A DNA stretch of 64,000 bases from Croceivirga thetidis (GTDB lineage Bacteria; Bacteroidota; Bacteroidia; Flavobacteriales; Flavobacteriaceae). The stretch's first letter is position 1, and every line of letters begins with the position of its first letter. Positions 1,967 to 27,372 of this stretch are shown piece by piece. The DNA lies in assembly GCF_012272815.1 (NCBI RefSeq), contig NZ_JAAWWL010000002.1, forward strand, positions 402,280 through 466,279. The letters run 5' to 3'. Both the position numbers and the translations under genes were made by a program. The notes beneath the pieces were generated by a model that was not told the origin of the DNA, ran no database searches, and worked only from the letters and a program-made list of their open reading frames with translations.

Positions 1967-1994
1967 CAAAAGTAAATTAAAATTTCAAATGCAA
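1967..1994 (-). promoter_or_regulatory. Promoter of the merC-like gene
   Basis: Read on the minus strand, TTG (plus-strand CAA at 1992-1994) is followed after 17 nt by TACTTTTG (plus-strand 1967-1974). This matches the Bacteroidota -33 TTG / -7 TAnnTTTG arrangement. The TTG lies inside the palindrome at 1989-2005, so a bound repressor would cover the -33 element. Assigned by pattern only. Confidence 0.6.
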
Positions 1995-2005
1995 CTAAGT
2001 TGCAT
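1989..2005. promoter_or_regulatory. Putative Zur-type operator, copy 1
   Basis: The 17-bp inverted repeat ATGCAACTAAGTTGCAT lies between the divergent merC-like and ABC transporter genes. The same half-sites and spacing recur at 12498, 22393 and 25421, each time next to a gene with a metal-homeostasis signature. It overlaps the -33 TTG of both divergent promoters. The Zur assignment is inferred from gene context, from the Fur-family gene ending this operon (4891-5295), and from the size and symmetry of the site. Confidence 0.72.
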
Positions 2006-2026
2006 CTTTATTTCTTCTTAATTTTG
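2000..2026 (+). promoter_or_regulatory. Promoter of the ABC transporter operon
   Basis: TTG at 2000-2002, inside the operator palindrome, is followed after 16 nt by TAATTTTG at 2019-2026. This fits the Bacteroidota -33/-7 pattern. The ABC ATPase ATG follows 14 nt after the -7 element, giving a very short leader. Confidence 0.62.
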
Positions 2027-2040
2027 TTCAAATTGTTGAA

Positions 2041-2667
2041 ATGGTAAAAACACAAGGACTACAGTTTGCTTATAACGATAGCAGCACTTTTGATTTTCCT
2101 GATATCAGTTTAAAACCAAAAGAGCATTTACTGATTTTAGGACCTTCAGGAGTTGGTAAAACGACATTACTACATCTTCTTTCTGGAATTTTGCCGCCAT
2201 CCAGTGGTCTTATAACAATTGATGATACTGAGATATCATCTTTAAGCCGAAAGGAATTGGACAGGTTTAGGGGTTCACAAATTGGTCTAATATTTCAACA
2301 ATACCACTTTGTAAAATCATTGAATGTTGAAGAAAATTTGAAATTACGACAGCACTTTCCAAAGCAGTTAAAAGATACGGAACGAAGGCGGGCTATTGCA
2401 CAACGGTTAGGGCTTTCAGACCATTTGCAAAAAAAAGTCGGTCAATTAAGTCAAGGACAGCAACAGCGATTGGCTATAGCAATTGGCCTTGTTCACCAGC
2501 CAAAAGTGGTTTTTGCAGATGAACCCACCTCCAACCTAGATGATAAAAACTGCGCACAGGTCTTACAGCTCTTAAAAGATGAGGCTGAACTGTGCAACAG
2601 TAGTTTGGTCATCATTACGCACGACCATAGGGTAACCGAACATTTTCCTAATCAAATTGTTTTATGA
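2041..2667 (+). CDS. ABC transporter ATP-binding protein (MacB/LolD type)
   Basis: ATPase subunit of a MacB/LolD-type ABC system. Walker A is GPSGVGKTT at about 34-42, the signature is LSQGQQQR, and Walker B is VVFADEPTSNLD, followed by the switch His in ITHDHR. At 208 residues it is near the minimum for this family. Its stop overlaps the start of the permease by 4 nt (ATGA), showing translational coupling. It is first in an operon of five: ATPase, permease, two secreted proteins and a Fur-family regulator. The operon lies behind a putative zinc operator. The arrangement resembles the zinc-regulated ZrgABCDE type system described in Vibrio cholerae more than a macrolide exporter. Direction of transport cannot be told from sequence. 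Confidence 0.87.
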   Translation: MVKTQGLQFAYNDSSTFDFPDISLKPKEHLLILGPSGVGKTTLLHLLSGILPPSSGLITIDDTEISSLSRKELDRFRGSQIGLIFQQYHFVKSLNVEENLKLRQHFPKQLKDTERRRAIAQRLGLSDHLQKKVGQLSQGQQQRLAIAIGLVHQPKVVFADEPTSNLDDKNCAQVLQLLKDEAELCNSSLVIITHDHRVTEHFPNQIVL

Positions 2668-4010
2668 GTATTCTGTATCTGGCATTTCGAAATTTAATCT
2701 CAAAACCACTGAATTTAATACTTAGTTTATTGCTCCTTGTGCTAAGCGTTTCTTTGGTGACCTTCATTTTGCAGCTTACGGCGCAGATGAATGAGCAGAT
2801 GGATAAGAATATTGCACCAATTGATATGGTAGTTGGGGCAAAGGGAAGTCCACTTCAGCTAGTCCTTTCCTCTGTTTTACATATAGATACCCCAACAGGT
2901 AATATTAAATTGGATGAGGCAGAGAAAATTATGAAACATCCATTTGTTGGTTCGGCTATACCGGTTTCTTATGGTGATAATTATAAAGGTTATCGAATCT
3001 TAGGTACGGAGCTTGAATATTTTGAGCAATATGACGCTGAGATTGCAAGTGGCAAACTTTATGAAAACACTTTTGAAATTGTAGCTGGTAGTGCAGTAGC
3101 CAATAATTTAGGACTTAAGATTGGGGATAAAATTGTCAGTTCCCATGGATTGGCGGCCACGGCTGTAGAGGCACATGAAGATAAACCTTTCACCATTGTG
3201 GGCATTTTGAAACCAACTGGAACAGTTACTGACCAATTATTGGTAAGTAATTTAGAAAGTGTATGGGCCGCACACGACCATTCCCATGAAGATGAAGGTG
3301 AAGATCACAATCATGAGGACCATGACCATGATGAGCATGACCATTCAGGTGAAGAGCATAATCATGAAGATCATGACCACGATGACCACGAACATGATGA
3401 CCATGATCATGCGGCTGAAAATCACGACCATGAAGGCGAAGAACATGAGCATAACCATGCTGAAAATTTGGAGATTACCTCCCTTCTTATAAAATTTAAA
3501 AGTCCATTAGCCCTAGTGCAAATGCCCCGATTCATAAATGAAAATACAAATATGCAGGCAGCCCTACCTGGTTTCGAAATTCAAAGATTGATGGGATTAT
3601 TGGGGTCTGGTGCTAAGACCATAAATGGTATTGCCTTGGCTATATTATTGGTTTCCGGTCTAAGTATTTTTATAAGCCTTTTGAAGACAATTCGGGAAAG
3701 ACGACAAGAATTGGCCTTATTGCGCACCTATGGATTGGGAACTGCCAAACTTTTAACCTTGGTTTTGTTGGAAGGGGTATTTTTAGCAATTTTTGGCTTT
3801 TTATTGGGATGGTTATTTGGCCGGCTTGCCTTAGTTTTAGCCTCTAAATATGTCGAGTCAGGTTATGGGTACGTTTTGCAAATAAATGGCCCAACTTTTG
3901 CTGAACTCCTATTACTTGGAGCCACTTTGTTGATTTCTATTATAGCAGTAATTTTGGCTTCAACATCAATATTTAAGTTGAACATATCTAAGACGTTAGC
4001 TGATGCATAA
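2664..4010 (+). CDS. FtsX/MacB-type ABC permease with a His-rich periplasmic loop
   Basis: Permease partner of the preceding ATPase. The layout is one N-terminal helix (about 14-40), a periplasmic MacB_PCD-like domain, and three C-terminal FtsX helices (about 318-342, 358-388, 412-440). The unusual part is residues 204-268, which hold about 22 histidines alternating with Asp/Glu, written as HDH, DHDH and EHNH units (DNA 3273-3467). Such loops bind Zn(II) or related ions in ZnuA, ZIP and CDF proteins. The insert sits in the extracytoplasmic domain near the second helix. With the zinc operator upstream, this suggests the transporter handles or senses zinc in the periplasm. The gene ends with an 8-nt overlap into the next one. 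Confidence 0.85.
   Translation: MSILYLAFRNLISKPLNLILSLLLLVLSVSLVTFILQLTAQMNEQMDKNIAPIDMVVGAKGSPLQLVLSSVLHIDTPTGNIKLDEAEKIMKHPFVGSAIPVSYGDNYKGYRILGTELEYFEQYDAEIASGKLYENTFEIVAGSAVANNLGLKIGDKIVSSHGLAATAVEAHEDKPFTIVGILKPTGTVTDQLLVSNLESVWAAHDHSHEDEGEDHNHEDHDHDEHDHSGEEHNHEDHDHDDHEHDDHDHAAENHDHEGEEHEHNHAENLEITSLLIKFKSPLALVQMPRFINENTNMQAALPGFEIQRLMGLLGSGAKTINGIALAILLVSGLSIFISLLKTIRERRQELALLRTYGLGTAKLLTLVLLEGVFLAIFGFLLGWLFGRLALVLASKYVESGYGYVLQINGPTFAELLLLGATLLISIIAVILASTSIFKLNISKTLADA
3273..3467 (+). repeat. Low-complexity His/Asp/Glu coding repeat
   Basis: Degenerate tandem CAT/CAC-GAC/GAT-GAA codons inside the permease gene encode the metal-binding loop. The degenerate units (for example GACCATGACCAT) make this a likely site of length variation by slippage between strains. 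Confidence 0.85.
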
Positions 4011-4440
4011 AATTCTTTTCTTTTTAATCTCCATTTTTTCTTTTCAAGTTGCCCTTTCACAAGTTGAATTGACTTGGGCCGACTTTGCAGACGTAAATTT
4101 TGAAGCGCAATACAATCAAGAATATGACACCCATTTTTTAATGCCAACATTTGGGCAAAAGATTATGGGTTACCATGGCAAGGAAGTAAGCATAACAGGA
4201 TACTTTTTGGACATTTCGGGTACTGGAGAAGTATTGTTATTGTCTTCCAACCCTATGGCTTCTTGTTTTTTCTGTGGGGCTGCGGGTCCGGAAAGTATTA
4301 TAGAGGTAGTTTTTAATGAAATTCCTCCATTTATTACCGACCAAGTGGTTAAGGTGACCGGTACGCTTCAATTGAATGGGGATAATGTTGATAGGTGCAA
4401 TTATATTTTGAAGAATGCAACGGGTAAATTGATAAATTAA
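4003..4440 (+). CDS. Secreted protein with CFFC motif (DUF3299-like), copy 1
   Basis: Exported protein of 145 residues; signal peptide 1-20 (ends VALSQ). The core has GKEVSITGYFLD (59-70), then PMASCFFCGAAGPE (84-97) and later VTGTLQL and RCNYIL. Cys88, Cys91 and Cys132 are at exactly the same positions in the next gene, so the three probably form a thiol metal site or a disulfide. The pattern of a GxxVxIxGY strand, a Cys-containing loop and a VxGxL strand recalls the OB-like DUF3299 proteins linked to zinc-regulated ABC systems. I infer that relationship from pattern only. The start overlaps the permease stop by 8 nt, so the two are translationally coupled. Probable role: periplasmic partner of the ABC transporter. 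Confidence 0.75.
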   Translation: MHKILFFLISIFSFQVALSQVELTWADFADVNFEAQYNQEYDTHFLMPTFGQKIMGYHGKEVSITGYFLDISGTGEVLLLSSNPMASCFFCGAAGPESIIEVVFNEIPPFITDQVVKVTGTLQLNGDNVDRCNYILKNATGKLIN

Positions 4441-4441
4441 C

Positions 4442-4876
4442 ATGAGAATTCTATTCTCTCTTTTTATCTTTTTTTCACTGACTGGGTTTTATGCACAAAC
4501 TACAGTAACCTGGTCTGATCTGCAATATGGCATTTCTTGGAAAGAAAGTACATCAGAATTGGTTTACCCAGGTTTTTTAGAAGCGGATTTTTCCAACGAA
4601 TTAACCCATTTAAAAGGCAAGGAAATTACGCTAACAGGATATTTGCTTGTTTTGGATGGTAGCCAAGAAGTTTTTATTCTTTCAAAAAGTCCAATGGCAA
4701 GTTGTTTTTTTTGTGGAAATGAAGGTCCTGAAACGATTTCCGAAATCTCGTTTGCAAAAGACTACAACTTTATGATGGACGACTTGATTACCGTCACCGG
4801 TATTCTTCGCTTAAATCGTGACGATCCAACGCGTTGTTATTATCGAATTGAAAACGCAGAGGGATTCGGCCTTTAA
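4442..4876 (+). CDS. Secreted protein with CFFC motif (DUF3299-like), copy 2
   Basis: Tandem paralogue of the preceding gene, starting 1 nt after its stop. Signal peptide about 1-18 (ends GFYAQ). It shares GKEITLTGYLL, PMASCFFCGNEGPE, VTGILRLN and RCYYRIENA, with Cys88, Cys91 and Cys132 in register with copy 1. The rest differs substantially, so this is an old duplication with probable subfunctions (for example a heterodimer) rather than a recent repeat. Exact function is unknown. The position between the ABC permease and the Fur regulator points to periplasmic metal handling. Confidence 0.75.
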   Translation: MRILFSLFIFFSLTGFYAQTTVTWSDLQYGISWKESTSELVYPGFLEADFSNELTHLKGKEITLTGYLLVLDGSQEVFILSKSPMASCFFCGNEGPETISEISFAKDYNFMMDDLITVTGILRLNRDDPTRCYYRIENAEGFGL

Positions 4877-4890
4877 ATAAGCAATTAATA

Positions 4891-5295
4891 ATGAATCAGT
4901 CGGCTATTCAAAATAAACTTCAAGAATTTGGATTAAAGAGGACAAAACTTCGTATTGCCCTTTTGAACTGCCTTTTAGAAGCTGATCATGCCCTTGCATA
5001 TCTTGATATTAAAGGAAAATTAGGGAATGACGTTGATAAATCAACAATATATCGGAATCTGTCTGCCTTTGAAAAAGCTGGTATAATTCACCATATTAAA
5101 GACCAAAGTGGAATTACCAAATACGCTTACGGTAAGATGAAAAGCCATCTTGAAGGGCATGCCCATTTTTTGTGCGAGCAATGCGAGACCGTTTATTGTA
5201 TTGATGAAATCAAGTCCGATGAGATTGATGTTCCTAAAGGATTCAAAATGTCATCTGTGCAAACAATTATTAAAGGTACCTGCTCAAACTGTTAG
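4891..5295 (+). CDS. Fur-family transcriptional regulator (candidate Zur)
   Basis: 134-residue Fur-family repressor. The N-terminal winged helix spans about 8-80, with GLKRTKLRIALL and STIYRNLSAFEKAGIIHHI as recognisable HTH segments. The dimerisation/metal domain has HLEGHAHFLCEQC, and the protein ends GTCSNC. The two CxxC pairs form the structural zinc site seen in Fur, Zur and PerR. It ends the zinc-associated ABC operon (14 nt after the previous gene) whose promoter carries the palindrome, so autoregulation is likely. A second Fur paralogue lies at 25004. Which of the two reads the palindrome cannot be settled from sequence; the operon position favours this one as Zur. Confidence 0.85.
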   Translation: MNQSAIQNKLQEFGLKRTKLRIALLNCLLEADHALAYLDIKGKLGNDVDKSTIYRNLSAFEKAGIIHHIKDQSGITKYAYGKMKSHLEGHAHFLCEQCETVYCIDEIKSDEIDVPKGFKMSSVQTIIKGTCSNC

Positions 5296-5305
5296 AATTC
5301 GTAGG

Positions 5306-5890
5306 CTACCAAAAACTGTTTTCCAACATTGAAATTAATGACATTCCCGCAGCCGCTCCTGAAATAAAAAGGTTCCATTCGCGGTGTTTCACTTTTAGAA
5401 AATTCAAGAAAAGAAAGGCTACACCAACAATAAAAAGAACAATCAACAACTGACCTAATTCAATGCCTACATTGAAACCTAAAAGTGGTACAACAATATC
5501 TGAAGGGTCCATAATAAGCGCTTTAAAATAGTTTGAAAAGTCCATACCATGAATCATCCCAAAGAATAATGCCATCACATAATTCCGTTTCATTTTTAGG
5601 CCGTTGCTTTCAATTTCTTTACCAATTACATTGTGTATTGCGGTTAGGAAAATTGTGAGTGGGATAAGGAACTTAATAATGTTTGATGGAATCGAAAATA
5701 GTTCAAGTGACACCAAGACCAAGGTAACACTGTGCCCAATGGTAAAGGCGGTAACGAGAATTAGAATCTTTTTCCATTCCTCTAGGCGATAAACAGCACA
5801 AAGGGCAACCAAAAAAAGAATATGATCGTATGCCGCAATATCCGCTATATGCTCAAAACCAAGTTTCAGATAAAATTCAAACTGGTTCAT
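5306..5890 (-). CDS. HupE/UreJ-like membrane protein
   Basis: Membrane protein of 194 residues with six to seven predicted helices. The HupE/UreJ_2 motifs are present in order: GFEHIADIAAYDHILFL, TIGHSVTLVL, MIHGMDFSNYF and FNVGIELGQL. Family members next to hydrogenase or urease genes are nickel/cobalt permeases; in Bacteroidota the same fold occurs without either enzyme, as here, and its substrate is uncertain. It is the last of eight minus-strand genes behind the COG0523 GTPase. It converges on the Fur gene with only 10 nt between stops and no visible hairpin terminator. Confidence 0.8.
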   Translation of the reverse strand: MNQFEFYLKLGFEHIADIAAYDHILFLVALCAVYRLEEWKKILILVTAFTIGHSVTLVLVSLELFSIPSNIIKFLIPLTIFLTAIHNVIGKEIESNGLKMKRNYVMALFFGMIHGMDFSNYFKALIMDPSDIVVPLLGFNVGIELGQLLIVLFIVGVAFLFLNFLKVKHREWNLFISGAAAGMSLISMLENSFW

Positions 5891-6054
5891 GTTATGCCAT
5901 ATAAAAGTTAAAATAACACATTAAATTTCTTTCTTTTTCGCCATGGCTTCGTTAAAAAATGTAATCGTAGCTAAGGCTATGCTTAGATTTTTTGCCTAAC
6001 CACGACAAAAAATGATTCAAATTCTGAATTAGCTAGTTTAACTGCTATAAGGCA

Positions 6055-6561
6055 CTAATAATTTAACTGATGAACCGGTGTCTTTTTTGTGAACATAAGA
6101 CTCTTTGATTTTCCCTTCGCATGTACATATACAATGTTGTTTTGATCAAAAAATAGGTCTGTAAAAACTGCATTTTTTATTTCTATCGACTTTAGAGGAG
6201 TTTTTTGTTCCAATTCAAAGTATACCCATAGCGCTGTATTTTCACCTTCACCACTTAGCTTTTTACTTTTAATTTTTAAGGAAGCTTTTTTATTATTGGC
6301 TTTTACATAAAAAAATCGATTAACGTATTGCATGAGCAATTGATTGGCATTGTTAGATTCGTTGGGTTGACAAAAAGCCAATTCCTTGCTGTAGGGGTCA
6401 AAAACAATAGCTTCATTTACATCTGTCAAAAACAACTTTAAATTAACCGTAATCAATTGTTTTTTAGGTAGATAATCGACCTCGCAGAGCGATAGTCGGA
6501 GCGGGTGTGAATAGGAAAACAACCCACACAATAACAAAACAAAAGGGAAAAATCGCACCAC
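6055..6561 (-). CDS. DUF6702-type exported protein
   Basis: 168-residue exported protein. Signal peptide 1-18 (ends FSYSH), followed by PLRLSLCEVDY, which resembles the N-terminus of the flavobacterial DUF6702 family. The rest is predicted beta-rich and soluble. In Bacteroidota this family is often found beside a HupE/UreJ-like protein, as here with the gene at 5306, so a shared function at the envelope is plausible. The molecular role is unknown. It starts 17 nt after the M19 dipeptidase stop, so it is probably co-transcribed with it. Confidence 0.65.
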   Translation of the reverse strand: MVRFFPFVLLLCGLFSYSHPLRLSLCEVDYLPKKQLITVNLKLFLTDVNEAIVFDPYSKELAFCQPNESNNANQLLMQYVNRFFYVKANNKKASLKIKSKKLSGEGENTALWVYFELEQKTPLKSIEIKNAVFTDLFFDQNNIVYVHAKGKSKSLMFTKKTPVHQLNY

Positions 6562-6578
6562 TATATTTGAGTCGCCGA

Positions 6579-7856
6579 TTAAGGTTCAGCCTGAATTTCT
6601 TCCGCAGTTTTTTGAACATCCTTAAACACACGGATTAAGTTTCCACCCCAAATCTTTTCAATTTGCTCTTCAGTGTATCCGCGTCGAACTAATTCAATTG
6701 TAATGTTCATGACCTCACTGGCATCGAAAACCCCTTCAATTCCTCCACCTCCATCAAAATCACAGCCAATGCCCACATGGTCAATTCCTGCAACTTTAAC
6801 GATATGGTCTATGTGGTCAACCACGTGTTCCACAGTCGCCGGTGGATTCGGAAACTTCTCGTTAAGTTCATTAAATGATTTTCGAAGTTCGGCCCGTTCT
6901 TCATCTGTCAATTCGGAGATAGGTTTTGTCATACTTGCGCGAATTGCGGCCATAGCAGAATCTCGAGCAGCATTGGGTGGAGCAGTACGTAAATAGTCAG
7001 CCAACATGGTCAGTTGAACAACGCCACCATTATCCGCCATTAATTTCAGCATTTCGTCCGTCATATTCCGTTTGTGGTCAGTTACCGAACGCGCATTGGA
7101 ATGACTTGCAATGATAGGTGCTTTAGACATTTTAATAGCATCGTAGAAAACACTGTCGTTGCCATGCGAAACATCAACCATAATGCCCAATCGGTTCATT
7201 TCGCCAACTACTTTAGACCCAAATTCGCTAATTCCACCATGTTCCGTGCCGTTATCGTCTGTGGCCGAATCTGCTAAATCATTGTTCGAAGAATGCACTA
7301 GAGTAATGTAGCGCACTCCTTTGTTGTAATACTCCTCAACATTACTAAGGTCACTTCCAATTGGATACCCATTCTCAATGCCAATGTAAATAGCTCTTTT
7401 ACCTGCTTTTTCAAGTTCGTAAGCATCATTAGGGTCCAAAGCAAGCCCAACGATATCTGAATTTCGTTCGGTTGATGCTATTACTGAGTCTATCATCTGT
7501 AAGCACAAAGCTTTTGCCCTTGTATTCCCATCATCATCACGAATGTCTTGAGCTACGAAGGCAGCAAAGAAAATAGCATCCAAATCACCTTCTTTCATTC
7601 TCGGGTAATCCACCTTAGAGCCCGTTTCTTTTGGATCATGGCGTTCGGCCATGTCAAAACCAGGTTCAATCATTCGTAAAGGTGTATCGGCGTGTGTATC
7701 GACGGTAAGCACCTTTTTATGTATTTCCATTGCTCGAGCGACTAGTTGTTCTTCAGTTTCTGCTTCGTCGGTATTGGATTTCGGTGCTTCTTTACATCCT
7801 ATAATTACAAGGAATAAAACGAATAGGACAGATAAATTTTTTGATTGGTTTTTCAT
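6579..7856 (-). CDS. Membrane dipeptidase, peptidase M19 family, lipoprotein
   Basis: Dizinc dipeptidase of the renal/membrane dipeptidase family. A lipobox ending at Cys21 (LVIIGC) indicates an SPII lipoprotein facing the periplasm. The catalytic domain begins at TVDTHADTPL, with the metal ligands His55 and Asp57. It continues with GIENGYPIG (bridging Glu), SHGND, ASHSNARSVTDHKRNMTD and the C-terminal DHVGIGCDFDGGGG. All expected metal ligands appear present. It follows a deacetylase and a YfcC-type carrier in the same direction, which suggests a route for breaking down and importing dipeptides or acylated amino acids. Being a zinc enzyme downstream of a zinc-chaperone gene may not be chance. 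Confidence 0.92.
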   Translation of the reverse strand: MKNQSKNLSVLFVLFLVIIGCKEAPKSNTDEAETEEQLVARAMEIHKKVLTVDTHADTPLRMIEPGFDMAERHDPKETGSKVDYPRMKEGDLDAIFFAAFVAQDIRDDDGNTRAKALCLQMIDSVIASTERNSDIVGLALDPNDAYELEKAGKRAIYIGIENGYPIGSDLSNVEEYYNKGVRYITLVHSSNNDLADSATDDNGTEHGGISEFGSKVVGEMNRLGIMVDVSHGNDSVFYDAIKMSKAPIIASHSNARSVTDHKRNMTDEMLKLMADNGGVVQLTMLADYLRTAPPNAARDSAMAAIRASMTKPISELTDEERAELRKSFNELNEKFPNPPATVEHVVDHIDHIVKVAGIDHVGIGCDFDGGGGIEGVFDASEVMNITIELVRRGYTEEQIEKIWGGNLIRVFKDVQKTAEEIQAEP

Positions 7857-7913
7857 GGTATTTGAATTAGCTATTGTGTTCTTCTAAATATACAACATTA
7901 GATGTTTTGACCG

Positions 7914-9080: not shown

Positions 9081-9086
9081 ATTTAG

Positions 9087-11186: not shown

Positions 11187-11206
11187 TTAGATAAAACTTC
11201 TAAAGT

Positions 11207-12430
11207 TTATTCCATGGCATATGCTCGCTCTACGGGCCATTCATCAAGGTAGCCGTTTTTCCAAACTGCCGATTCAATTTCATTATCGGTCGCCAGACAA
11301 GCATCTAGATGTTTTCGAATGGTCAATTCATCCATGTCCTGTCCTATAAAAACAATTTCATTTTTACGGTCACCAAAGGTGGAATCCCAATCTTTTTCTA
11401 TATGCTCTTGATTTTCTAAAAAGGATAGAAATTGCGCCCTTTTTTGAAAAGGCATACTTGACCACCAAACTCCAGCGCTGTCTGCACGTAATGAACCTCC
11501 GGCTTGCCCCCAGATTAAGGCCTGTTCCGGTCGAGAAGTGAGCCAAAATAGTCCTTTGCTACGGATTATTGTTGAGGGAAATTTCTGTTGGACATATTCC
11601 CAAAAGCGCTCGGCATCAAAGGGTTTTTTACTTCTGTAGACAAAAGAACTAATTCCATATTCTTCAGTTTCAGGGGTGTGTTCATCTTTTTTCAATTCTT
11701 CAATCCAACCAGCACTTTGTTCAGCTTCCTCATAATCGAACAATCCTGTATTAAGTATTCGTTTTGGATTTACCTTGCTGAATTCAGATTCCACTATTTG
11801 GGCCGTGGGATTCAGTTTTTCAATAATAGCCCGTAACATTTTTAGTGAGTCTTTTGAAACCAAATCGGTCTTGTTTAAAACTATGACATTTGCAAATTCA
11901 ATTTGGTCCGTTAGTAGATTGACAATGGTCCGATAATCTCCTTCCATATCTGTTAAATCTCGGTCCATAAGGGTTTCAGGACTACCAAAATCCTTAGAGA
12001 AATTAAAGGCATCTACTACAGTAACCATGGTATCTACATAGCTAAATCGGGATAAGTCGATATTATTTTCTTCATCAACAAATGAAAATGTTTGAGCCAC
12101 AGGAACCGGCTCACTTATCCCTGTACTTTCAATTAGCAAGTAATCGAACCTATTTTCTTTTGCCAATCGCTCAACTTCTATCATTAAATCTTCGCGTAGT
12201 GTGCAACAAATACAACCATTGCTCATTTCGACCAATTTTTCTTCTGTGCGAGAAAGCGTATTTTCACTTTGAACTAAGGCAGCATCAACATTCACTTCAC
12301 TCATGTCGTTTACAATAACCGCTACTTTAAGGCCTTCTTTGTTGTGAAGTACGTGGTTCAATAAGGTTGTTTTTCCTGCACCAAGAAAACCACTCAAAAC
12401 GGTCACGGGCAACTTTTTCTCTAATTCCAT
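11207..12430 (-). CDS. COG0523 GTPase, putative zinc chaperone (CobW/ZigA family)
   Basis: G3E-family P-loop GTPase of 407 residues. Walker A is [10 protein letters not shown] (14-23), the family's metal-binding CxCC motif is NGCICC (73-76), and [15 protein letters not shown] and NKTD (guanine specificity) follow. A CobW C-terminal domain begins after about residue 250. The sequence resembles the ZigA/YciC subgroup that delivers zinc under starvation and is repressed by Zur. The palindrome at 12498-12514 lies 68 nt upstream and covers the -33 element of a good promoter, matching that regulation. The DinB-like lipoprotein follows after 20 nt, and further metallohydrolases lie downstream on the same strand. 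Confidence 0.9.
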
Positions 12431-12474: not shown

Positions 12475-12503
12475 CAAAAATAGAATAAATCAAATAAATG
12501 CAA
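12475..12503 (-). promoter_or_regulatory. Promoter of the COG0523 gene
   Basis: On the minus strand TTG (plus-strand CAA at 12501-12503) is followed after 18 nt by TATTTTTG (plus-strand 12475-12482). The TTG lies in the palindrome at 12498-12514, the same geometry as at the merC/ABC intergenic region. Confidence 0.62.
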
Positions 12504-12514
12504 CTTAGTTGCAT
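12498..12514. promoter_or_regulatory. Putative Zur-type operator, copy 2
   Basis: ATGCAACTTAGTTGCAT, the same half-sites and 7-nt spacer as copy 1. The symmetry extends two further bases on each side (12496-12516). It lies 68 nt upstream of the COG0523 GTPase start and overlaps its -33 element. The COG0523/Zur association is established in other bacteria; the assignment here is inferred. Confidence 0.75.
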
Positions 12515-17608: not shown

Positions 17609-17803
17609 AAAGTGTGGTTGTATAGTTGTTTTAAAAATAAGGATTTCTCGTATCATTAGGTTCAAAAACCCGGGCCTTTTCTTATGTTTTGATTTAAGTT
17701 TATCCCAAACCCGATCTTTAAAAAATTCCCTTCTGTTATTAGTGAATTTTGGTTAATTTGTGTGTTACCTTGTACGAATAGCTAATAACCAATCATCACT
17801 ATT

Positions 17804-20800
17804 ATGAAATCATCCAAACTGCACTTGCTCTTGTGGGCGCTATTATCTGTAAATCTTTCCATTTCCCAAAACAGCGACAACGCCGAAGCACTCAAATCTA
17901 TGGAGTGGCGTGCCATAGGTCCGGCCAACATGGGAGGCCGAGTTACCGACATTGACGGTATACCTGGAGACCCAAGTACTTTTTATGTTTCAGGAGCTGA
18001 TGGCGGTATTTTCAAGACCACAAATGGGGGAGTAAATTTTAAACCCATATTCGAAGGCCAACGGGCATATTCCATAGGTGCTTTGACAATAGCTCCTTCG
18101 GACCATAATGTGTTGTGGGTAGGAACAGGTGAAGGTGATCCCAGAAATAGTGTCGGCTATGGCTGGGGCGTTTACCGATCTGTGGATGCGGGCAAGAATT
18201 GGACGCATTTAGGCCTAAAGAAAACGGAACGTATAAAAAGAATAGTTGTTGATCCGAATGACCCAGATGTAGCTTGTGTTTGTGCTTTAGGAAAAGAATG
18301 GGGGGCAAATCCTGAAAGGGGTGTTTTTAAAACAACTGATGGTGGTAAATCTTGGGATAAAATACTTTACATAGACGAGGATACCGGATGTTCAGATATA
18401 ACAATGGATATGAGCAATCCGCGTATTATCTATGCAGGGATGTGGACATTTCGGAGGAAACCTTGGCGATTTGATGATGGCGGTAGAGAAACTGCGATAT
18501 ATCGTACCATGGATGGAGGGGAATCGTGGGAAAAAATCATGAACGGATTGCCTAAGACCCCGATGGCACGACCTGGAATCCATATTGCACAAAGCGAACC
18601 GAACGTCATCTATTTGATGACCGAATTTCAGGGGGGAGGTACTGCATTTCGTTCCGAAGATAGAGGAGATAACTGGGTCATGGTCAATGACGATCCTAAT
18701 ATCAACTTTAGGCCCTTTTATTATAGTGATGTTCGAGTAGACCCGAATAATCCGGATATTCTCTTTTCGATTTCAGGTCGCTTGAGTCGTTCTGTTGACG
18801 GTGGAAATAATTGGGAAACCATAGCAAGAACCGTACATGGGGACCATCAAGCACTTTGGATAGATCCGACAAATTCGAATTATATCTTAAATGGAAGCGA
18901 TGGCGGTTATCAGATATCGCATGACGGTGGTGATAGTTGGGAGATTATTAATAATGTTGAGCTTTCGCAGTTCTATCAGATTTTTATTGATAACAAAGAC
19001 CCCTACAATATCTATGGTGGTCTTCAGGATAATGGCACCTGGGTTGGCCCTAGCAACTCGTTGTATTCTGCAGGTATATTAAAGCGGCATTGGAAAGGCT
19101 TGGCTTATGGCGATGGGTATTTTGCTGTTCCCATTCCTGGGAGTGAACATGAGGTTTATGCGAATTTGCAAGGCGGTGTCATATTTCATGTAGATTCTAG
19201 ACACGGTAATGTGCGTAATATCCATCCTTATCCTAAAATTATTGGGTCTGCAGGTGATGCTATTGAAGACCACAAATACCGCTTTAATTGGGATTCGCCC
19301 ATTACCATATCTCCCCATGACCCCAATACTGTTTATTTTGGTGGAAATGTGGTTTTCAAGTCTACCGACCGAGGTAATTCTTGGGAAGAAATCAGTCCAG
19401 ATTTAACCACCAACGACAAATCAAAACAACGCACTTCTGGTGGTGAAATATACCAAGACAATACGGCTGCTGAGTTTCATTGTTCCATACTTTACATTGA
19501 TGAATCTCCTGTAGAAAAAGGAGTTATCTGGGTTGGAACCGATGATGGCAACGTACAACTCACTCGCGATGGGGGTGCTACATGGACCAAACTTAATGAT
19601 AGAATCAAAGGATTACCAGCATTTGCCTGGGTTGCCAAAATCCATGCTTCTGAACATGATGCGGGCACTGCTTTTGTTACCGTGGACCAACATAGAATGG
19701 ACGATTTTAGGCCTTATATTTTTATGACGACGGATTATGGAAAGACGTGGGCGAAAATCACAAATGGACTTCCGCAAGATGATTATGTGAAAGTAACGCG
19801 GCAAGATCCAATCAATCCTAATGTGCTTTACGCAGGTATGGAGCATGGAATTTTTGCTAGCTGGGACAAAGGAAACTCGTGGACCAAAATCAATAATAAT
19901 TTGCCCAATGTTTCGGTACGCGATTTAAGAGTCCAGGCCAGAGACAGAGATTTAATTGTAGGAACACATGGTAGGGGAGCATGGGTTTTGGATGATATTC
20001 GTCCTATTCAAGAGATTGGTGAGGCCAAGGGAAAATCCACGCATTTGTTTCCAGTGAGAAGAGCCACACAATGGCATATGTTCTGGCGAGTTGAAAACCT
20101 TGGTGACCGTCACTACAAGGCCAAAAACCCTGATTATGGCGCAAATATCAATTTTTATTTAGCTGAAGGGAATGGAAAAACCGCGGAAGTGGAAATTCTT
20201 GATACCTCAGGTAAACTAATTAGAACCTTAAAAGATACTACCTTAACATCAGGAGTTAATCGTATTGTTTGGGATTTAGGGCATGATGCTGCCACCAAGA
20301 TGAAAGGTGGTTCAAGCGGAGGGTTCTTTTCAGGTCAAATGCACCCTTTGGTTGCTCCGGGTTCGTACACAGCTCGATTAAAAGTCAATGGAGAGGTTTT
20401 AGAAACACCGATAGAAGTTCGTGCCGACCCCAGAATTGAAATAAATGCAGCAGATTATGGGGCAAAAACTGAGCTATTGTTGGAGTTAAGGGAATTGTTG
20501 TCCCAAACCAATGTAATGATTAACAACACCAATACCTACAAAGCACAGTTAACCAATTTAAAAGAAAAATTAGCTTCAAATCAAAACCTTGATGAGGCAA
20601 TCTCAGGCGTTATTGATGGCGCAATGAAAAAAATCTCGGACTTACAGGACGATATTTTAAAAAGGCCACCACCTTCAATGACCTACAGACAGCGACCTCG
20701 ATTGCGCGAAGAAATTCGTTCGGTTATGAGAGCAGTAAATGGCGCATGGGCCAAGCCTACTCAGCCACAACTTTCAAGGTTACAACAGTTAAGGGGTGAA

Positions 20801-20908
20801 GTAGCAGAGGCACAGAGGTCCTTAAATCAAATTATTGACTCGGACATTAAAAGTATCAATGAGAAAACAAAAAATATTCCGCAAATCACAATTGGTGAAA
20901 AAAAATAA
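17804..20908 (+). CDS. Secreted VPS10/sortilin-type BNR-repeat protein, copy 2
   Basis: Paralogue of the divergent gene at 14456, 1034 residues. Signal peptide 1-21 (SVNLSISQ), then the same opening SMEWRAIGPANMGGR (copy 1 has SMEWRLVGPFRGGR). Many BNR/Asp boxes follow (KTTNGGVNF, SVDAGKNW, TTDGGKSW, SVDGGNNW, SHDGGDSW, TRDGGATW). The C-terminal third is a beta domain with GSYTARLKVNGE, then a helical tail rich in Leu, Lys and Asn. Its stop overlaps the ATG of the NlpC/P60 gene by one base (TAATG), so the two are coupled. Likely an extracellular or outer-membrane-associated propeller; ligand unknown. Confidence 0.85.
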   Translation: MKSSKLHLLLWALLSVNLSISQNSDNAEALKSMEWRAIGPANMGGRVTDIDGIPGDPSTFYVSGADGGIFKTTNGGVNFKPIFEGQRAYSIGALTIAPSDHNVLWVGTGEGDPRNSVGYGWGVYRSVDAGKNWTHLGLKKTERIKRIVVDPNDPDVACVCALGKEWGANPERGVFKTTDGGKSWDKILYIDEDTGCSDITMDMSNPRIIYAGMWTFRRKPWRFDDGGRETAIYRTMDGGESWEKIMNGLPKTPMARPGIHIAQSEPNVIYLMTEFQGGGTAFRSEDRGDNWVMVNDDPNINFRPFYYSDVRVDPNNPDILFSISGRLSRSVDGGNNWETIARTVHGDHQALWIDPTNSNYILNGSDGGYQISHDGGDSWEIINNVELSQFYQIFIDNKDPYNIYGGLQDNGTWVGPSNSLYSAGILKRHWKGLAYGDGYFAVPIPGSEHEVYANLQGGVIFHVDSRHGNVRNIHPYPKIIGSAGDAIEDHKYRFNWDSPITISPHDPNTVYFGGNVVFKSTDRGNSWEEISPDLTTNDKSKQRTSGGEIYQDNTAAEFHCSILYIDESPVEKGVIWVGTDDGNVQLTRDGGATWTKLNDRIKGLPAFAWVAKIHASEHDAGTAFVTVDQHRMDDFRPYIFMTTDYGKTWAKITNGLPQDDYVKVTRQDPINPNVLYAGMEHGIFASWDKGNSWTKINNNLPNVSVRDLRVQARDRDLIVGTHGRGAWVLDDIRPIQEIGEAKGKSTHLFPVRRATQWHMFWRVENLGDRHYKAKNPDYGANINFYLAEGNGKTAEVEILDTSGKLIRTLKDTTLTSGVNRIVWDLGHDAATKMKGGSSGGFFSGQMHPLVAPGSYTARLKVNGEVLETPIEVRADPRIEINAADYGAKTELLLELRELLSQTNVMINNTNTYKAQLTNLKEKLASNQNLDEAISGVIDGAMKKISDLQDDILKRPPPSMTYRQRPRLREEIRSVMRAVNGAWAKPTQPQLSRLQQLRGEVAEAQRSLNQIIDSDIKSINEKTKNIPQITIGEKK

Positions 20909-22332
20909 TGCAATTGGTAGTTAATAAGCGAAATCTAATTTGGTCGTATTTACTTGTGCTGACCCCTGTTTGTATGGGCATTTTCGGATGCAAGCAAGGA
21001 GTTGAAGAAGCCACTAAAATTGAAGTTGAACTATACACGACTTCAGACTTGGATTATCCTGAAGATCCTATCAAAATAACAAATGGGGTAACAGAAAATT
21101 ACCTCCAAAACTTTTTTCTCCCATGGAACTTAAGTCCAGAGCAAGTAGTGGATTCTTTGGATTCATTCCCTGGAAAGAATTTGTCCTATCTACAAAACTA
21201 TTTGGAAGATGATGAATGGTATGGTGAAAATAAAAAACCACACAAAAGGGTATTGCGAGAGGAAATTGTAGAAAATGTTGAGCTTGGCACTTTCCCAAAT
21301 TTTCAAAAAAAAGGAATCGTAATTGCCCATACCAATCTTAGGCGAATTCCATCAAATAGGCCCGGCTTTGATACCTATTCCAAAGCAGGGGAGGGTTTTC
21401 CATTTGATTATTTTCAAGAAACCAATCTATGGGCAAATACCCCTTTGCAATTACTTCACTTAACCAATGACAAACAGTGGTGCTATGCAGTAAGCCCATA
21501 CTACAAAGGTTGGGTGGCCTTGCACGATTTGGCAATCGTGACTGATGATTTTATTTCAGCCTGGAAAACAGGGCATTATGCCATGCCTAAATCAGATGCA
21601 GTCAATCTCTCCGACCCATCCTCAAATTATGCTATCAATGCAAAAATGGGAATGGTATTGCCTTATGAAAATAGCACTAAAGGAGAACAAATTTTGGCAT
21701 TTTATACAAATGCAGATGAAAATCAGAATGCGGTTATTTTAAAGGCAGCTATTGATAAAGATAAAGTTGCCCTAGCTGATTTTCGGTTCGAAAAAGACAA
21801 GCTAAAGATTTTGGTTTCTAACTTAATAGGTAGGCCCTATGGATGGGGAGGGAATCTAGAGAATCGGGACTGCTCTTCAATGATTCGAGATTTAATGGCT
21901 ACCTATCAAGTTTGGTTGCCACGAGATTCGAAGGACCAAATTGATATCGGGCAGCAATTTGAACTTACCGGTAGTCTCGAAGAAAAAATGCAGCTAATTA
22001 AAGCAAAAGCAATTCCGTTTCAGACCATACTTCGAAAAAAAGGACATAATATGCTTTATGTTGGGGAGAATGAAAGAGGTGAGCCCCTTATATTTCATGC
22101 TATTTGGGGATTAAAAACTACATACTCCAATAAAAAGTTAGCTACTTATCTTGTTGATTATCCATTGGAAGGCATTCATCATGATGAAGATGGAGCACTC
22201 AAGGGGCGACATATTTTGGGAGAATCGGTTATCACCTCAGTGCTCGCTGGCTCAGGTAATGAAGGTGTAACCAGACCTTTATTGGATGAGATTTATACAA
22301 TGACTAATATTTTAGAGAACTTAAAACCTTAA
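20908..22332 (+). CDS. SH3 and NlpC/P60 (C40) peptidoglycan endopeptidase, lipoprotein
   Basis: Predicted gamma-D-glutamyl-L-diamino-acid endopeptidase acting on murein peptides in the periplasm. A lipobox IFGC gives Cys28 as the lipidation site. The middle part contains bacterial SH3-like segments (TNLRRIPSNRPGF, KGWVALHDLAIV). The NlpC/P60 domain starts near 300 with IGRPYGWGGN. The triad is complete: Cys322 in NRDCSSM, His380 in KGHNMLYVG and His397 in IFHAIWG. The architecture matches the YkfC-like C40 peptidases used in murein peptide recycling. It is translationally coupled to the BNR-repeat protein and ends about 60 nt before the third zinc operator. Confidence 0.88.
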   Translation: MQLVVNKRNLIWSYLLVLTPVCMGIFGCKQGVEEATKIEVELYTTSDLDYPEDPIKITNGVTENYLQNFFLPWNLSPEQVVDSLDSFPGKNLSYLQNYLEDDEWYGENKKPHKRVLREEIVENVELGTFPNFQKKGIVIAHTNLRRIPSNRPGFDTYSKAGEGFPFDYFQETNLWANTPLQLLHLTNDKQWCYAVSPYYKGWVALHDLAIVTDDFISAWKTGHYAMPKSDAVNLSDPSSNYAINAKMGMVLPYENSTKGEQILAFYTNADENQNAVILKAAIDKDKVALADFRFEKDKLKILVSNLIGRPYGWGGNLENRDCSSMIRDLMATYQVWLPRDSKDQIDIGQQFELTGSLEEKMQLIKAKAIPFQTILRKKGHNMLYVGENERGEPLIFHAIWGLKTTYSNKKLATYLVDYPLEGIHHDEDGALKGRHILGESVITSVLAGSGNEGVTRPLLDEIYTMTNILENLKP

Positions 22333-22392
22333 TTCATTTTATAACTCTATTCAGTTGGGCCGGGCTATGGTTTTAAAACCATCATAGTTTTT

Positions 22393-22409
22393 TGCAATAA
22401 GGTTGCAAT
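22393..22409. promoter_or_regulatory. Putative Zur-type operator, copy 3
   Basis: TTGCAATAAGGTTGCAA keeps the TGCA-N7-TGCA geometry of copies 1 and 2, with outer T/A instead of A/T. A TATCTTTG -7 element follows at about 22421-22428, immediately in front of the DUF6660-like gene. Coordinates may be off by one base. Downstream genes are a His/Cys-rich small protein, a TonB receptor and a Fur-family regulator. Confidence 0.6.
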
Positions 22410-22431
22410 CCAATTCCTATATCTTTGTCGG

Positions 22432-22752
22432 GTGAAGTTTTTAGCGGTCATACTATCCTTTTATATTTTGGCATTGAATTTCTTGCCATGTGCTGACAAT
22501 GACCCGATCAATGATTCAGATTGTACAGAAGTACATTTGGATTTCGACCATGGGCAAGACCATGAAGACTGTGAACTTTGCTCACCTTTCTGCCATTGCA
22601 ATTGCTGCCACTCCAATGCGGTAGACTTTGAAAGGATATCGGTATTAAAAACTCTTGAAGAAAAAATATTCAATCGGGTATTCACTTATTGTGAAGGTTA
22701 CGGCATCAACTTTTCGCCATCTCTTCTTCAACCTCCCAAGAAAACTGTCTGA
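22432..22752 (+). CDS. Small His/Cys-rich exported protein (DUF6660-like)
   Basis: 106-residue protein with a hydrophobic export segment (1-19) ending at LPC (Cys20). A His/Asp/Cys cluster at 31-60 includes HEDCELC (44-50) and CHCNCC, followed by a C-terminus ending PPKKTV. It resembles the small DUF6660 proteins that precede TonB receptors in flavobacteria. The start is GTG at 22432, only a few bases after a TATCTTTG -7 element, so the transcript would be leaderless or nearly so. A similar small protein with HEECHLC precedes the other TonB receptor (29837-30142). Metal binding is likely from composition; the function is unknown. Confidence 0.72.
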   Translation: MKFLAVILSFYILALNFLPCADNDPINDSDCTEVHLDFDHGQDHEDCELCSPFCHCNCCHSNAVDFERISVLKTLEEKIFNRVFTYCEGYGINFSPSLLQPPKKTV

Positions 22753-22809
22753 CCCCAAGCGATAAAATCATCGCCCCCAAAATTATTAAGACAGTTTATT
22801 CTAGTTAAA

Positions 22810-24990
22810 ATGACCAAATACATAATGAGCTTTGGGCTCATGCTCATGTTTTGCGCATCCAGTATCGCACAAAACATATTGGAAATTAAAGTACTTACCA
22901 AGAAAGAAAAAGAACCTTTGCTTGGAGCTACGGTATACATCGCCTCGCTGGACAAGGGTGCGACCACCAATTTTGACGGAATTGCCATTCTGGGGGAAAT
23001 TCCCAATGGGACCTACGAGATTCAAATTTCCTATTTGGGCTTTGAAACAAGGGAAATATCCATTTCAGTCCCAACTGCTACAGAACTAATATTCTACTTA
23101 GAAGAAAGTGCCAACGCCTTGGATGAAGTAGTGGTTCAATCCACCAGAAGTACCCGTACCATCCAAAGGATACCAACACGGATAGAGTATATAGGTGCTG
23201 AAGAACTGGGTGAAAAAGCTATTATGAATCCTGCAAATGTATCGGTAGTCTTGCGAGAAAGTACAGGGATCCAAATGCAGCAGACCTCACTGAGCAGTGC
23301 AAATACCAATATTAGAATTCAAGGTTTGGATGGGCGTTACACCCAACTATTGCGCGATGGTTTTCCACTTTACAGTGGTTTTTCAAGTGGATTGAGCATT
23401 TTACAGATACCTCCATTGGACTTAAGGCAATTTGAAATCATTAAGGGAAGTTCATCAACATTATATGGAGGTGGTGCCATTGCAGGCTTGGTAAACATGG
23501 TCTCAAAAACACCCGAAGAAGAGCCAACTTTAGATATCATGCTAACGCAGACACAGGCACTGGGAAGTACGGCCAATATTTTTTATGGGGAGCGAAAGGA
23601 CAAATGGGGTTGGACACTTTACGGCTCGGGTCATTACCAAAAAGCTTTTGACCCTGAGAATGATGGCTTTAGTAATTTACCCCTGACCCAATCTATAAGT
23701 TTTAACCCTAAACTATTTTACTATCCTTCGAACAACACAACGTTTTGGTTTGGAATCAATGGAACTTATGATGACAGAATAGGTGGGGATATTACAAAAA
23801 TTGAAGAAGGTGAAAATGGCATCCATCAATTTACGGAAGAAAACCTATCAAAACGAGTAAGCACACAAGCTGTTTTTGAGTCTCGGTTAGATTCCGTTCA
23901 ATCCATTTCCATAAAGAACAGCATTGCTTTTTTTGATAGGAGTTTGGAAATACCCGATTTGTTCTTTAAAGGCAATCAATGGAACACTTTTACAGAAGCG
24001 GCCTATCAGAAACAGGGGATTAGGTCAGATTGGGTTTTGGGTGCGAACCTTTATACCACATCATTTGACGAGCGGGACAATCCATTGGAACGCGACCAAC
24101 AAGATGTTACAGCGGGATTGTTCGCCAATGCCATTTTTGACCTTTCTGAACTATGGATTCTTGAAACGGGACTACGTACGGATTATGCCATTGACTGGGG
24201 GCTTTTTGCACTACCTAGGGTTTCACTGTTGTTTAAATCGAACAATAACTTTTCCAGTAGGCTTGGTGGTGGCTTGGGCTACAGGGTTCCAGATATATTT
24301 ACTGAAGAAGCTGAATTCATCAACTTTAGAAATGTATTACGAATTGATAAAGATTTGCTGAAAGCAGAACGTTCTTACGGTCTCAATTTGGATTTTAACT
24401 ACCAAACTAGGTTGACGGACGACATAGGCTTTTCTATCAATCAATTGTTTTATCTCACCGCCATTAGGGATGGATTGCTACTCAATCCTAATGCTGATGA
24501 TTTCTTTCGGTTTGAAAATGCATCTGGTGAAATTCTTAGTAGAGGTGCAGAAACGAACATCAAGTTTACCTATGAAGATTTTAGGTGGTTTTTGAACTAT
24601 GCATTTATTGATACACGACTCAATTATCTACCTGGTAATCCGCAAAAACCACTAACTGCTCGGCATAATGCAGGTAGTGTTTTGATGTATGAATCTGAAA
24701 AATGGCGTATTGGTTATGAGACCTATTACACGGGAAAACAATTGCTGTCCAATGGTATGGAAACAACAGACTTTTTTACGATGGGATTGCTCGCAATGCG
24801 TAATTTTAAATGGGGAAGTACGTTTGTGAATTTTGAGAACTTTACGGACCGAAGACAGAGCCGTTTTTCACCTTTGGTACTACCGCCACACGAAAACCCT
24901 ACCTTCCCAGAAATTTATGCCCCTACGGACGGATTTATTTTTAGTGTAGGCGTTATTTTGAAACCATTTGGGAACGAGGACAACCATTAA
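22810..24990 (+). CDS. TonB-dependent outer-membrane receptor, probable metal or metallophore
   Basis: 726-residue TonB-dependent receptor. Signal peptide 1-20 (SSIAQ). An N-terminal carboxypeptidase-regulatory-like domain runs to about 95 (EPLLGATVYIASLDKGATTNFDG, ISYLGFETREI). The plug (about 100-230) has NIRIQGLDGRYTQLLRDGFPLYSG and ISKG-type EIIKGSSSTLYGGGAIAGLVN. A 22-strand barrel follows. The size and the RIQGLDGRYTQLL plug resemble the FepA/BtuB-like group in flavobacteria. Position between a His/Cys small protein and a Fur regulator, behind a putative zinc operator, suggests uptake of zinc or a zinc complex. Substrate is inferred from context only. Confidence 0.87.
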   Translation: MTKYIMSFGLMLMFCASSIAQNILEIKVLTKKEKEPLLGATVYIASLDKGATTNFDGIAILGEIPNGTYEIQISYLGFETREISISVPTATELIFYLEESANALDEVVVQSTRSTRTIQRIPTRIEYIGAEELGEKAIMNPANVSVVLRESTGIQMQQTSLSSANTNIRIQGLDGRYTQLLRDGFPLYSGFSSGLSILQIPPLDLRQFEIIKGSSSTLYGGGAIAGLVNMVSKTPEEEPTLDIMLTQTQALGSTANIFYGERKDKWGWTLYGSGHYQKAFDPENDGFSNLPLTQSISFNPKLFYYPSNNTTFWFGINGTYDDRIGGDITKIEEGENGIHQFTEENLSKRVSTQAVFESRLDSVQSISIKNSIAFFDRSLEIPDLFFKGNQWNTFTEAAYQKQGIRSDWVLGANLYTTSFDERDNPLERDQQDVTAGLFANAIFDLSELWILETGLRTDYAIDWGLFALPRVSLLFKSNNNFSSRLGGGLGYRVPDIFTEEAEFINFRNVLRIDKDLLKAERSYGLNLDFNYQTRLTDDIGFSINQLFYLTAIRDGLLLNPNADDFFRFENASGEILSRGAETNIKFTYEDFRWFLNYAFIDTRLNYLPGNPQKPLTARHNAGSVLMYESEKWRIGYETYYTGKQLLSNGMETTDFFTMGLLAMRNFKWGSTFVNFENFTDRRQSRFSPLVLPPHENPTFPEIYAPTDGFIFSVGVILKPFGNEDNH

Positions 24991-25003
24991 ACCGAACAAT
25001 ACT

Positions 25004-25420
25004 ATGATACCTTCAGATAAATTTTTGGAAAGCAAAGGTATACGACCAACGGCAATGCGGCTTTTGGTATTTCAACATCTTGCCAAATCCAAAGTGGCAA
25101 CTACGTTGTCAGATATAGAAAACGCTTTCGCGAAAGCGGACAGGACAACCCTTTTCAGGACCCTAAAAACCTTTGAGCAAAAACGGGTCGTCCATCAAAT
25201 AGACGACGGTTCGGGCATTATGAAATATGCTTTGTGCGAAGAAGGCTGTAATTGTGAATTGGAAAGAGACCTGCATCTCCATTTTCATTGCACCATTTGT
25301 GGTGAGACCATATGCCTAACCGAACAGAAAATCCCTCATATCAATCTGCCTGATGGTTTTGTCGCCGAGGATGCCAACTTGGTACTAAAAGGAATTTGCG
25401 ATAAATGTAGCGGTCAATAA
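25004..25420 (+). CDS. Fur-family transcriptional regulator, second copy
   Basis: Fur-family protein of 138 residues when started at the ATG at 25004; a longer frame from 24968 would overlap the receptor gene by 23 nt and add a non-conserved MGTRTTIKPNNT. The winged helix includes GIRPTAMRLLVFQHL and RTTLFRTLKTFEQKRVVHQI. The metal domain has HLHFHCTICGETICL and ends GICDKCSGQ, giving the two structural CxxC pairs. It is related to the regulator at 4891 but clearly different, with extra Cys (EEGCNCELE) in the hinge. It probably controls this receptor cluster. An operator-like palindrome follows directly after its stop. A 16-bp perfect palindrome lies inside its coding sequence at 25123-25138. 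Confidence 0.85.
   Translation: MIPSDKFLESKGIRPTAMRLLVFQHLAKSKVATTLSDIENAFAKADRTTLFRTLKTFEQKRVVHQIDDGSGIMKYALCEEGCNCELERDLHLHFHCTICGETICLTEQKIPHINLPDGFVAEDANLVLKGICDKCSGQ
25123..25138. repeat. 16-bp perfect palindrome CGCTTTCGCGAAAGCG
   Basis: A GC-rich exact palindrome inside an otherwise AT-rich coding sequence, encoding AFAKA in the hinge of the second Fur gene. I saw only this copy in the window. It resembles dispersed iterated palindromes of some bacterial genomes, but that needs genome-wide counting. Confidence 0.55.
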
Positions 25421-25437
25421 ATGCACTTCCATTGCAT
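25421..25437. promoter_or_regulatory. Putative Zur-type operator, copy 4
   Basis: ATGCACTTCCATTGCAT keeps the ATGCA-N7-TGCAT geometry, with an unsymmetrical spacer. It starts on the base after the Fur gene stop codon and lies 35 nt in front of the DUF3703/CDF pair. No clear TAnnTTTG element follows, so it may be a regulatory site inside an operon. Confidence 0.5.
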
Positions 25438-27355: not shown

Positions 27356-27372
27356 GATTAAAGAATTGCGTG

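Follow-up and report, generated by a model that had tools for sequence, protein, structure and literature searches.

Introduction

The Zur regulons of Proteobacteria, Firmicutes and Actinobacteria, as described in passages of PMC6103462 and PMC2770081, combine a Fur-family gene and a short palindromic box over the promoter with COG0523 genes, extra folE-type and hisI-type copies, TonB receptors, and DUF1826 beside COG0523. COG0523, FolE2, HisI and TonB receptors are named in these passages as regulon members, and DUF1826 appears in a figure legend on Zur-regulated COG0523 clusters (PMC2770081). Here we analysed 64,000 nucleotides of Croceivirga thetidis (NZ_JAAWWL010000002.1, positions 402,280 to 466,279; the window) that contain four palindromic sites, and we hold with moderate confidence that the window carries two neighbouring Fur-family regulons with sister operators. 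The four sites look like real control sites, apparently of two related kinds rather than one Zur box. For the sites at 1989 and 12498 (class A) the Zur-box reading is supported by the sequence comparisons, and those at 22392 and 25421 (class B) are probably controlled by a second, related Fur protein that governs efflux, for which the candidate is FurB, encoded at 25004. Class A shares the features listed above with the described Zur regulons. It differs from them in its box, TGCAAC-N3-GTTGCA, which is often paired 38 bp apart, in counting merC and a His-loop ABC pair of the MacB type among its core genes, in an extra FolE of type I that keeps its zinc ligands in place of FolE2, and in a regulator that scores far below the cut-off of the Zur model.

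Control of metal efflux by a Fur-family protein, which the class B genes would share, is described in passages of PMC6103462 for zitB of Streptomyces coelicolor, czcD of Xanthomonas campestris and efflux genes of Corynebacterium glutamicum. In those species one Zur does both jobs, whereas in the window a separate paralogue adjoins the exporters and has a box variant to itself. ZntR of Riemerella anatipestifer is also a zinc regulator of Flavobacteriales, but it belongs to the MerR family, for which reason it was dropped as a known regulator of this kind, and the passages of PMC11960050 concerned contain no Fur-type box. For PgFur of Porphyromonas gingivalis, no box was found in the passages of PMC6613475. 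The Zur review (PMC6103462) has no matches for words beginning with Bacteroid or Flavobacter, and neither has the COG0523 paper, the motifs of which were trained on Firmicutes and Proteobacteria. In the open-access literature, judged by titles and the starts of abstracts and with subscription papers and RegPrecise outside the scope, no Zur box of Bacteroidota was recognised.

The motif in the window and in the genome

The loose motif WTGCA-N7-TGCAW is present five times in the window (1989-2005, 12498-12514, 22392-22408, 25421-25437 and 62061-62077) compared to 0.66 expected copies, and none of 100 shuffles contained at least five. The original prediction had listed four copies before metal genes and had described their half-sites and spacers as identical. 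The four copies are where it placed them, except that 22393-22409 is corrected here to 22392-22408, and the copy at 62061-62077 is added; the latter lies within an lpxD-like open reading frame (ORF; named by eye), with no adjoining metal gene. All four intergenic sites in the window adjoin or precede metal-type genes, as confirmed by Pfam and NCBIfam matches, and the box is indeed unlike the proteobacterial one. The description as identical is right for the TGCA half-sites and their spacing and does not extend to the inner bases, which split the sites two and two.

Across the 3.7-Mb genome, the loose motif is rarer than a first-order Markov simulation predicts (21 sites compared to 36.9), and 15 of the 21 sites lie inside ORFs of at least 100 amino acids. 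Because of these two results the loose motif alone is weak, and it was rejected as a genome-wide signal. Of the six intergenic sites in the genome, four are those beside metal genes in the window. The sites are clustered, as 4 of the 21 fall within 23.4 kb, where 0.13 would be expected (post hoc P about 1e-5). The other two intergenic sites are found downstream of a hemB-like gene (L003) and near an sbtA-like gene (L004), both named by eye. Searches with reversed patterns contain CpG and were not used as controls.

Two classes of sites and their promoters

The class A sites are perfect palindromes, and their exact core is found twice in the genome, both times in the window, compared to 0.25 expected occurrences. 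Twelve genome sites have at most one mismatch to this core; two are the exact ones, one is at 22393, and eight of the other nine lie inside ORFs. The zinc-limitation boxes of Escherichia coli and Bacillus subtilis are 7-1-7 or 23-bp palindromes; class A is likewise about 15-17 bp long and has a 7-1-7 form, TGCAACT-N-AGTTGCA, with different letters. The class B sites fit TGCAMT-N3-RTTGCA, which has two matches in the genome, both in the window. In relatives, C occupies position 6 of the core in 98% of the 102 class A sites; these had been selected to differ by no more than one base from a pattern already holding this C. In the 35 class B sites, selected solely on TGCA-N7-TGCA, the base there is T in 94%.

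The class A site ATGCAACTAAGTTGCAT (1989..2005) lies between two divergent transcription units. On the minus strand is merC, encoding a MerC-family membrane protein (1528..1953; Pfam PF03203, 75.5 bits), and on the plus strand an ABC operon begins with an ATPase (2041..2667; PF00005) and a MacB/FtsX-type permease (2664..4010; PF12704 and PF02687) with a His-rich loop seen in the ORF. Two small secreted CFFCG-motif proteins follow (4003-4440 and 4442-4876, plus strand; ORFs), for which Pfam gave no family, so that an identity as DUF4920 was dropped, and then the Fur-family regulator at 4891..5295 (plus strand), the candidate reader of class A. The second class A site, ATGCAACTTAGTTGCAT (12498..12514), is upstream of a ZigA-type COG0523 GTPase gene on the minus strand (11207..12430; NCBIfam ZigA 560.8 bits, below the cut-off of 600), and is found at the same place in genomes G534, G536, G537 and G538. 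The class B site TTGCAATAAGGTTGCAA (22392..22408) precedes three plus-strand genes, which encode a His/Cys-rich small DUF6660 protein (22432..22752; PF20365, 81.8 bits), a TonB-dependent receptor (22810..24990; NCBIfam matches below cut-off, the best being TIGR01783 with 66.8 bits) and FurB (25004..25420; Pfam FUR 32.8 bits on a longer ORF), the second Fur-family paralogue and candidate reader of class B. Directly after furB, the class B site ATGCACTTCCATTGCAT (25421..25437), of which the 15-base core is kept in relatives, precedes genes on the same strand for a DUF3703 protein (25472..25846; PF12487, 142.3 bits) and a CDF-family cation exporter (25847..26728; TIGR01297, 209.3 bits, above the cut-off of 82.35).

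Bacteroidota promoters have TTTG at -33 and TANNTTTG at -7, with the first T of the latter at -12 (passages of PMC6847099 and PMC2483708). An exact -7 box was found in four of the five gene-facing directions, at 29 bp from the site start toward the ABC operon (TAATTTTG, 2019..2026, plus strand), 30 bp toward merC (TACTTTTG, 1967..1974, minus strand), 31 bp toward zigA (TATTTTTG, 12475..12482, minus strand) and 27 bp toward DUF6660 (TATCTTTG, 22420..22427, plus strand). With the -7 box 27-31 bp away, the sites cover about -43 to -25 and thus overlie the -33 element, so that steric repression is the simplest reading. A palindromic box over the promoter, as in Zur regulons, is found at the class A genes. 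In class A relatives the -7 offsets are fixed, at 16 and 54 toward fur and at -6 and 32 toward merC, and in class B relatives the -7 box is at 27 or 28 bp in 15 of 29 sites, the count having used 29 of the 35.

Class A sites in relatives

Eighty named loci (L157-L236; Formosa, Polaribacter, Maribacter, Cellulophaga, Zobellia and others) were fetched by the fur-A protein alone, which avoids a choice based on the motif. A class A site with at most one mismatch is present within 300 bp upstream in 66 of these 80 loci, compared to 14 of 1995 control windows taken from these loci, and the exact core in 37 (control 6/1995). Two sites with at most one mismatch each were found in 36 loci, with one site per divergent promoter and a spacing of 38 bp in 35 of them and 39 bp in one. 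In the loci read at length, the merC side continues with folE, COG0523, TonB receptors, zigA, the ABC pair and a CFFCG-type protein, and in L099 also with alkaline phosphatase. Gene calls in relatives are the longest ORFs found by script.

A search of 80 genomes from the family turned up the exact core in 24. Among the 24 exact-core loci kept, nine have it between merC and a Fur-family gene of a type with a start close to MGIIRKTKSV, and the window has it between merC and the ABC operon. It precedes a lone fur in one locus, DUF6660/RND operons in three and other genes in two; in two more it separates another Fur type from a TonB receptor, and in six it falls inside ORFs. Gene names were given partly by eye, and DUF6660 by model. 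For zigA loci across the phylum, a class A site lies within 400 bp in 11 of 28 (control 2/168), these being 28 of 32 loci because L258, L259 and L261 have no match to the start motif and L260 is cut. Five zigA loci that do not enter this count (L239, L246, L247, L248 and L252) carry one at a greater distance upstream, still inside the fetched stretch and with no more than one mismatch. In the phylum sample, zigA matches best at L237 and L238 (77% and 76%; G755 and G777); both loci come from a family that does not belong to the window's class, and neither has a class A site within 400 bp.

The six closest sampled relatives of the 4891 protein (43-55% identity, L118-L123) have the same operon order as the window, and four of the five such loci that were read have the exact core between merC and the divergent operon, with a degenerate core in the fifth. 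Within the genus, the exact core is present in 8 of 11 genomes, and G534, G536 and G537 repeat the merC-to-zigA layout with both class A sites. Seven same-genus relatives contain 25 exact sites, of which 20 are intergenic and 5 inside ORFs; three of the 20 (L284/L296, L286 and L290) were re-scored by synteny, because the overlapping ORFs are start-extended, short or antisense, and the count would otherwise be 17 of 25. The intergenic sites are at merC (nine, with merC in L290 confirmed by direct reading), before zigA (four), where zigA lies in other members (three), at TonB/lipoprotein genes (two), between a TonB receptor and a DtxR-family gene (one) and before a lipoprotein-DCD-HisI-FolE operon (one). 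DUF1826 stands between merC and zigA in L294, and looser site pairs lie between merC and fur-A in G399 and G531.

Several further observations were made on class A sites. In L276, L284/L296 and L286 (G532, G533 and G535) a class A site marks the former place of zigA, which is now in a merC-DUF1826-zigA operon elsewhere. In L298 (G537) tandem sites at 2528 and 2567 precede the lipoprotein-DCD-HisI-FolE operon, which holds additional copies of two genes for zinc enzymes, both familiar from Zur regulons. In L046 and L049 (L112 and L113), class A-like sites lie between a TonB receptor gene and the divergent gene of a further Fur type, which starts near LSETPFRK. A thioredoxin-reductase-like oxidoreductase gene (named by eye) recurs beside fur-A or a class A site in L059, L099 (16055-17056), L294 (3253-4161), L300 and L301. 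A second TonB receptor of the window, with a lipoprotein and a small His/Cys-rich protein (26798-30142), has no class A site within two mismatches, and its counterpart in G536 and G538 has an adjoining one (L288 and L291).

FurB and class B sites in relatives

The relatives of FurB form a tree group of modest support (81/93). In 35 of 50 FurB-type loci, TGCA-N7-TGCA is present within 150 bp 3′ of the gene, compared to 3 of 899 control windows, and a conserved site thus separates furB from the exporters, as would be expected of a Fur protein dedicated to efflux; the exporters were assigned by model in three cases. The 50 proteins were sorted by best hidden Markov model (HMM) score and include four outliers (L084, L090, L124 and L125), all without a site. 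Behind the site lie genes for a P-type ATPase, for DUF3703, or for DUF6660 and an RND pump. Two of the P-type ATPases score above the cadmium-family model TIGR01512, one RND pump scores above the CusA/CzcA model, and DUF3703 and DUF6660 were confirmed by model in eight examples. The window core TGCACTTCCATTGCA is unchanged after furB in 7 of the 50 loci (L072, L132, L133, L136, L138, L144 and L071) and in the same-genus genome G530 (L305). In G531 it has one change, and the order TonB-FurB-site-DUF3703-CDF is repeated, with the CDF gene named by eye. In L103, L104 and L114, TGCA-N7-TGCA also occurs within furB, where it encodes an HFHC stretch, probably by chance.

Within the genus, a close FurB (71% and 68%) and class B sites are found in G530 and G531, neither of which contains the exact class A core, though G531 does have the looser pair mentioned above. 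G532-G538 have the class A core and no close FurB.

The 4891 protein and the metal signal

The 4891 protein has the winged helix and dimer domain of the Fur family, and its structural Cys4 zinc site (two CxxC) is complete, with C95, C98, C131 and C134 invariant in the A3 alignment of 19 sequences. As to a sensory site with a sulfur ligand (N2OS), H67, H90, H92 and C103 are invariant in this alignment as well, and the KYA-C cysteine is missing from the 4891 protein and its six close relatives. Structure models of both Fur proteins are confident, with a predicted local distance difference test score (pLDDT) of 90.4 for FurB and 89.6 for the 4891 protein. The PDB matches listed for FurB include PerR, Fur and Zur; among those listed for the 4891 protein, Fur, PerR and Zur are in a tie. 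Since these matches span PerR, Fur and Zur, the fold is that of the Fur family and does not name the metal.

Genes typical of Zur regulons were found with class A, namely zigA in the window and in relatives, and folE, hisI and TonB genes in relatives. From this gene content we infer that zinc is the class A signal. The idea that the extra FolE is a zinc-free enzyme was rejected, as the CEHH ligands are kept in all eight aligned copies and HLC in the seven full-length ones.

Discussion

In the mechanism that we propose, a Zur-like repressor, most likely the 4891 protein, would bind TGCAACTNAGTTGCA over the -33 element of the merC, ABC-operon and zigA promoters. At low zinc this repressor would release its sites, and zinc-sparing and scavenging genes, its own included, would switch on. 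FurB would bind TGCAMT-N3-RTTGCA at the matching promoter position, both ahead of its own operon and ahead of the DUF3703-CDF pair, and would set metal efflux, with its repression lifted when metal is plentiful. The original prediction took all four sites for a Zur box of Bacteroidota. For 1989 and 12498 this agrees with their tie to a Fur-family gene and with the zinc-limitation-type genes found beside such sites across the phylum; it does not fit 22392 and 25421, which go with FurB and exporters.

Several observations weigh against two regulons with separate sister operators. The main reason against higher confidence is that in four relatives (L044, L056, L057 and L114) a class A core, TGCAACACAGTTGCA, precedes DUF6660/RND export operons, with DUF6660 checked by model in L044 and L114, and therefore the inner bases do not cleanly separate the two gene sets. 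Either these bases do not determine the reading protein, or the sites before DUF6660 may be read by both regulators. The class B pattern is loose, with 4.0 genome matches expected and two found, and therefore the case for class B rests on position; 15 of the 50 FurB-type loci are without a site. Toward DUF3703 (25421) there is a near match, TATCTTGA, and no exact -7 box, and, while none of the three directions that face no gene has an exact one, the one at 25421 has a similar near match. Three of the 11 same-genus genomes lack an exact class A core, 17 of the 28 zigA loci have no class A site within 400 bp, and G534 retains the site between merC and the ABC operon without a Fur gene there, its fur-A gene being elsewhere in the genome. 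The 4891 protein itself is a long branch of unsure placement in the tree and is not of the MGIIRKTKSV type. The KYA-C cysteine is absent from it and from six close relatives and present in class A and class B cousins, and the protein scores 19.6 bits against the NCBIfam model of enterobacterial Zur (NF008646), for which the cut-off is 167; the missing cysteine and this score call for caution over the name Zur. That the extra FolE beside class A genes retains its zinc ligands speaks against the zinc reading.

The sense in which FurB would act is a separate question. The position of its sites and the precedent of C. glutamicum Zur suggest that it represses efflux genes. It might instead be a metal-dependent activator of efflux, as Zur is for CDF exporters in Xanthomonas and Streptomyces (passages of PMC6103462), which we consider doubtful although it deserves to be kept in mind. 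A site that overlies the -33 element and keeps a constant distance of 27-28 bp to the -7 box is what would be expected of a blocker, and in C. glutamicum apo-Zur represses efflux genes from a position over -35 (passages of PMC6103462).

A single regulon, in which one Zur reads all four sites and, when bound to zinc, represses uptake and handles the CDF exporter in the manner of zitB in Streptomyces or czcD in Xanthomonas, is unlikely in our judgement. It would account for the TGCA-N7-TGCA frame and the promoter position that all four sites have in common and for the class A cores before the export operons of L044, L056, L057 and L114, and Zur activation of CDF genes is described for two species in passages of PMC6103462. 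However, each class tracks its own Fur gene, as the opposite distributions in G530/G531 and G532-G538 show, and the class B sites overlie the -33 element, unlike the zitB site, which is upstream of it (passages of PMC6103462).

That the class A regulator senses a different metal, or several, e.g. manganese, iron or cobalt, with the zinc-type genes as a by-product, seems quite improbable. The lack of the KYA-C cysteine in the 4891 protein would fit this, as would its best matches by sequence among solved structures, which are Fur and PerR, and the one class A site that adjoins a DtxR-family gene. Against it, the genes that recur with the site, COG0523/ZigA, FolE, HisI and DUF1826, are those named with Zur regulons in print, in the passages cited above. 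Chance placement of a short palindrome near metal genes would suit the loose motif, which stays below its genome-wide expectation and lies mostly inside ORFs, but it was rejected as next to impossible given the strong positional conservation in loci fetched without the motif (fur-A 66/80 vs. 14/1995, furB 35/50 vs. 3/899, zigA 11/28 vs. 2/168).

The class A site provides a usable candidate zinc-limitation box for Bacteroidota, with which zinc regulons of this phylum could be read from genomes. With two sister boxes next to two sister Fur proteins, one pair at scarcity genes and the other at exporters, the window would be a direct test ground for the rule that Fur proteins bind when metal-bound. 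As a tentative extension, which we regard as possible rather than probable, Bacteroidota may have split the control of zinc-group metals between a Zur-like repressor acting on TGCAAC-N3-GTTGCA and a FurB branch that lies in export clusters and represses P-type ATPase, CDF and RND exporters until released by metal excess. If true, this split control would mean a Fur branch devoted to efflux and opposite in sense to the classical rule of the family.

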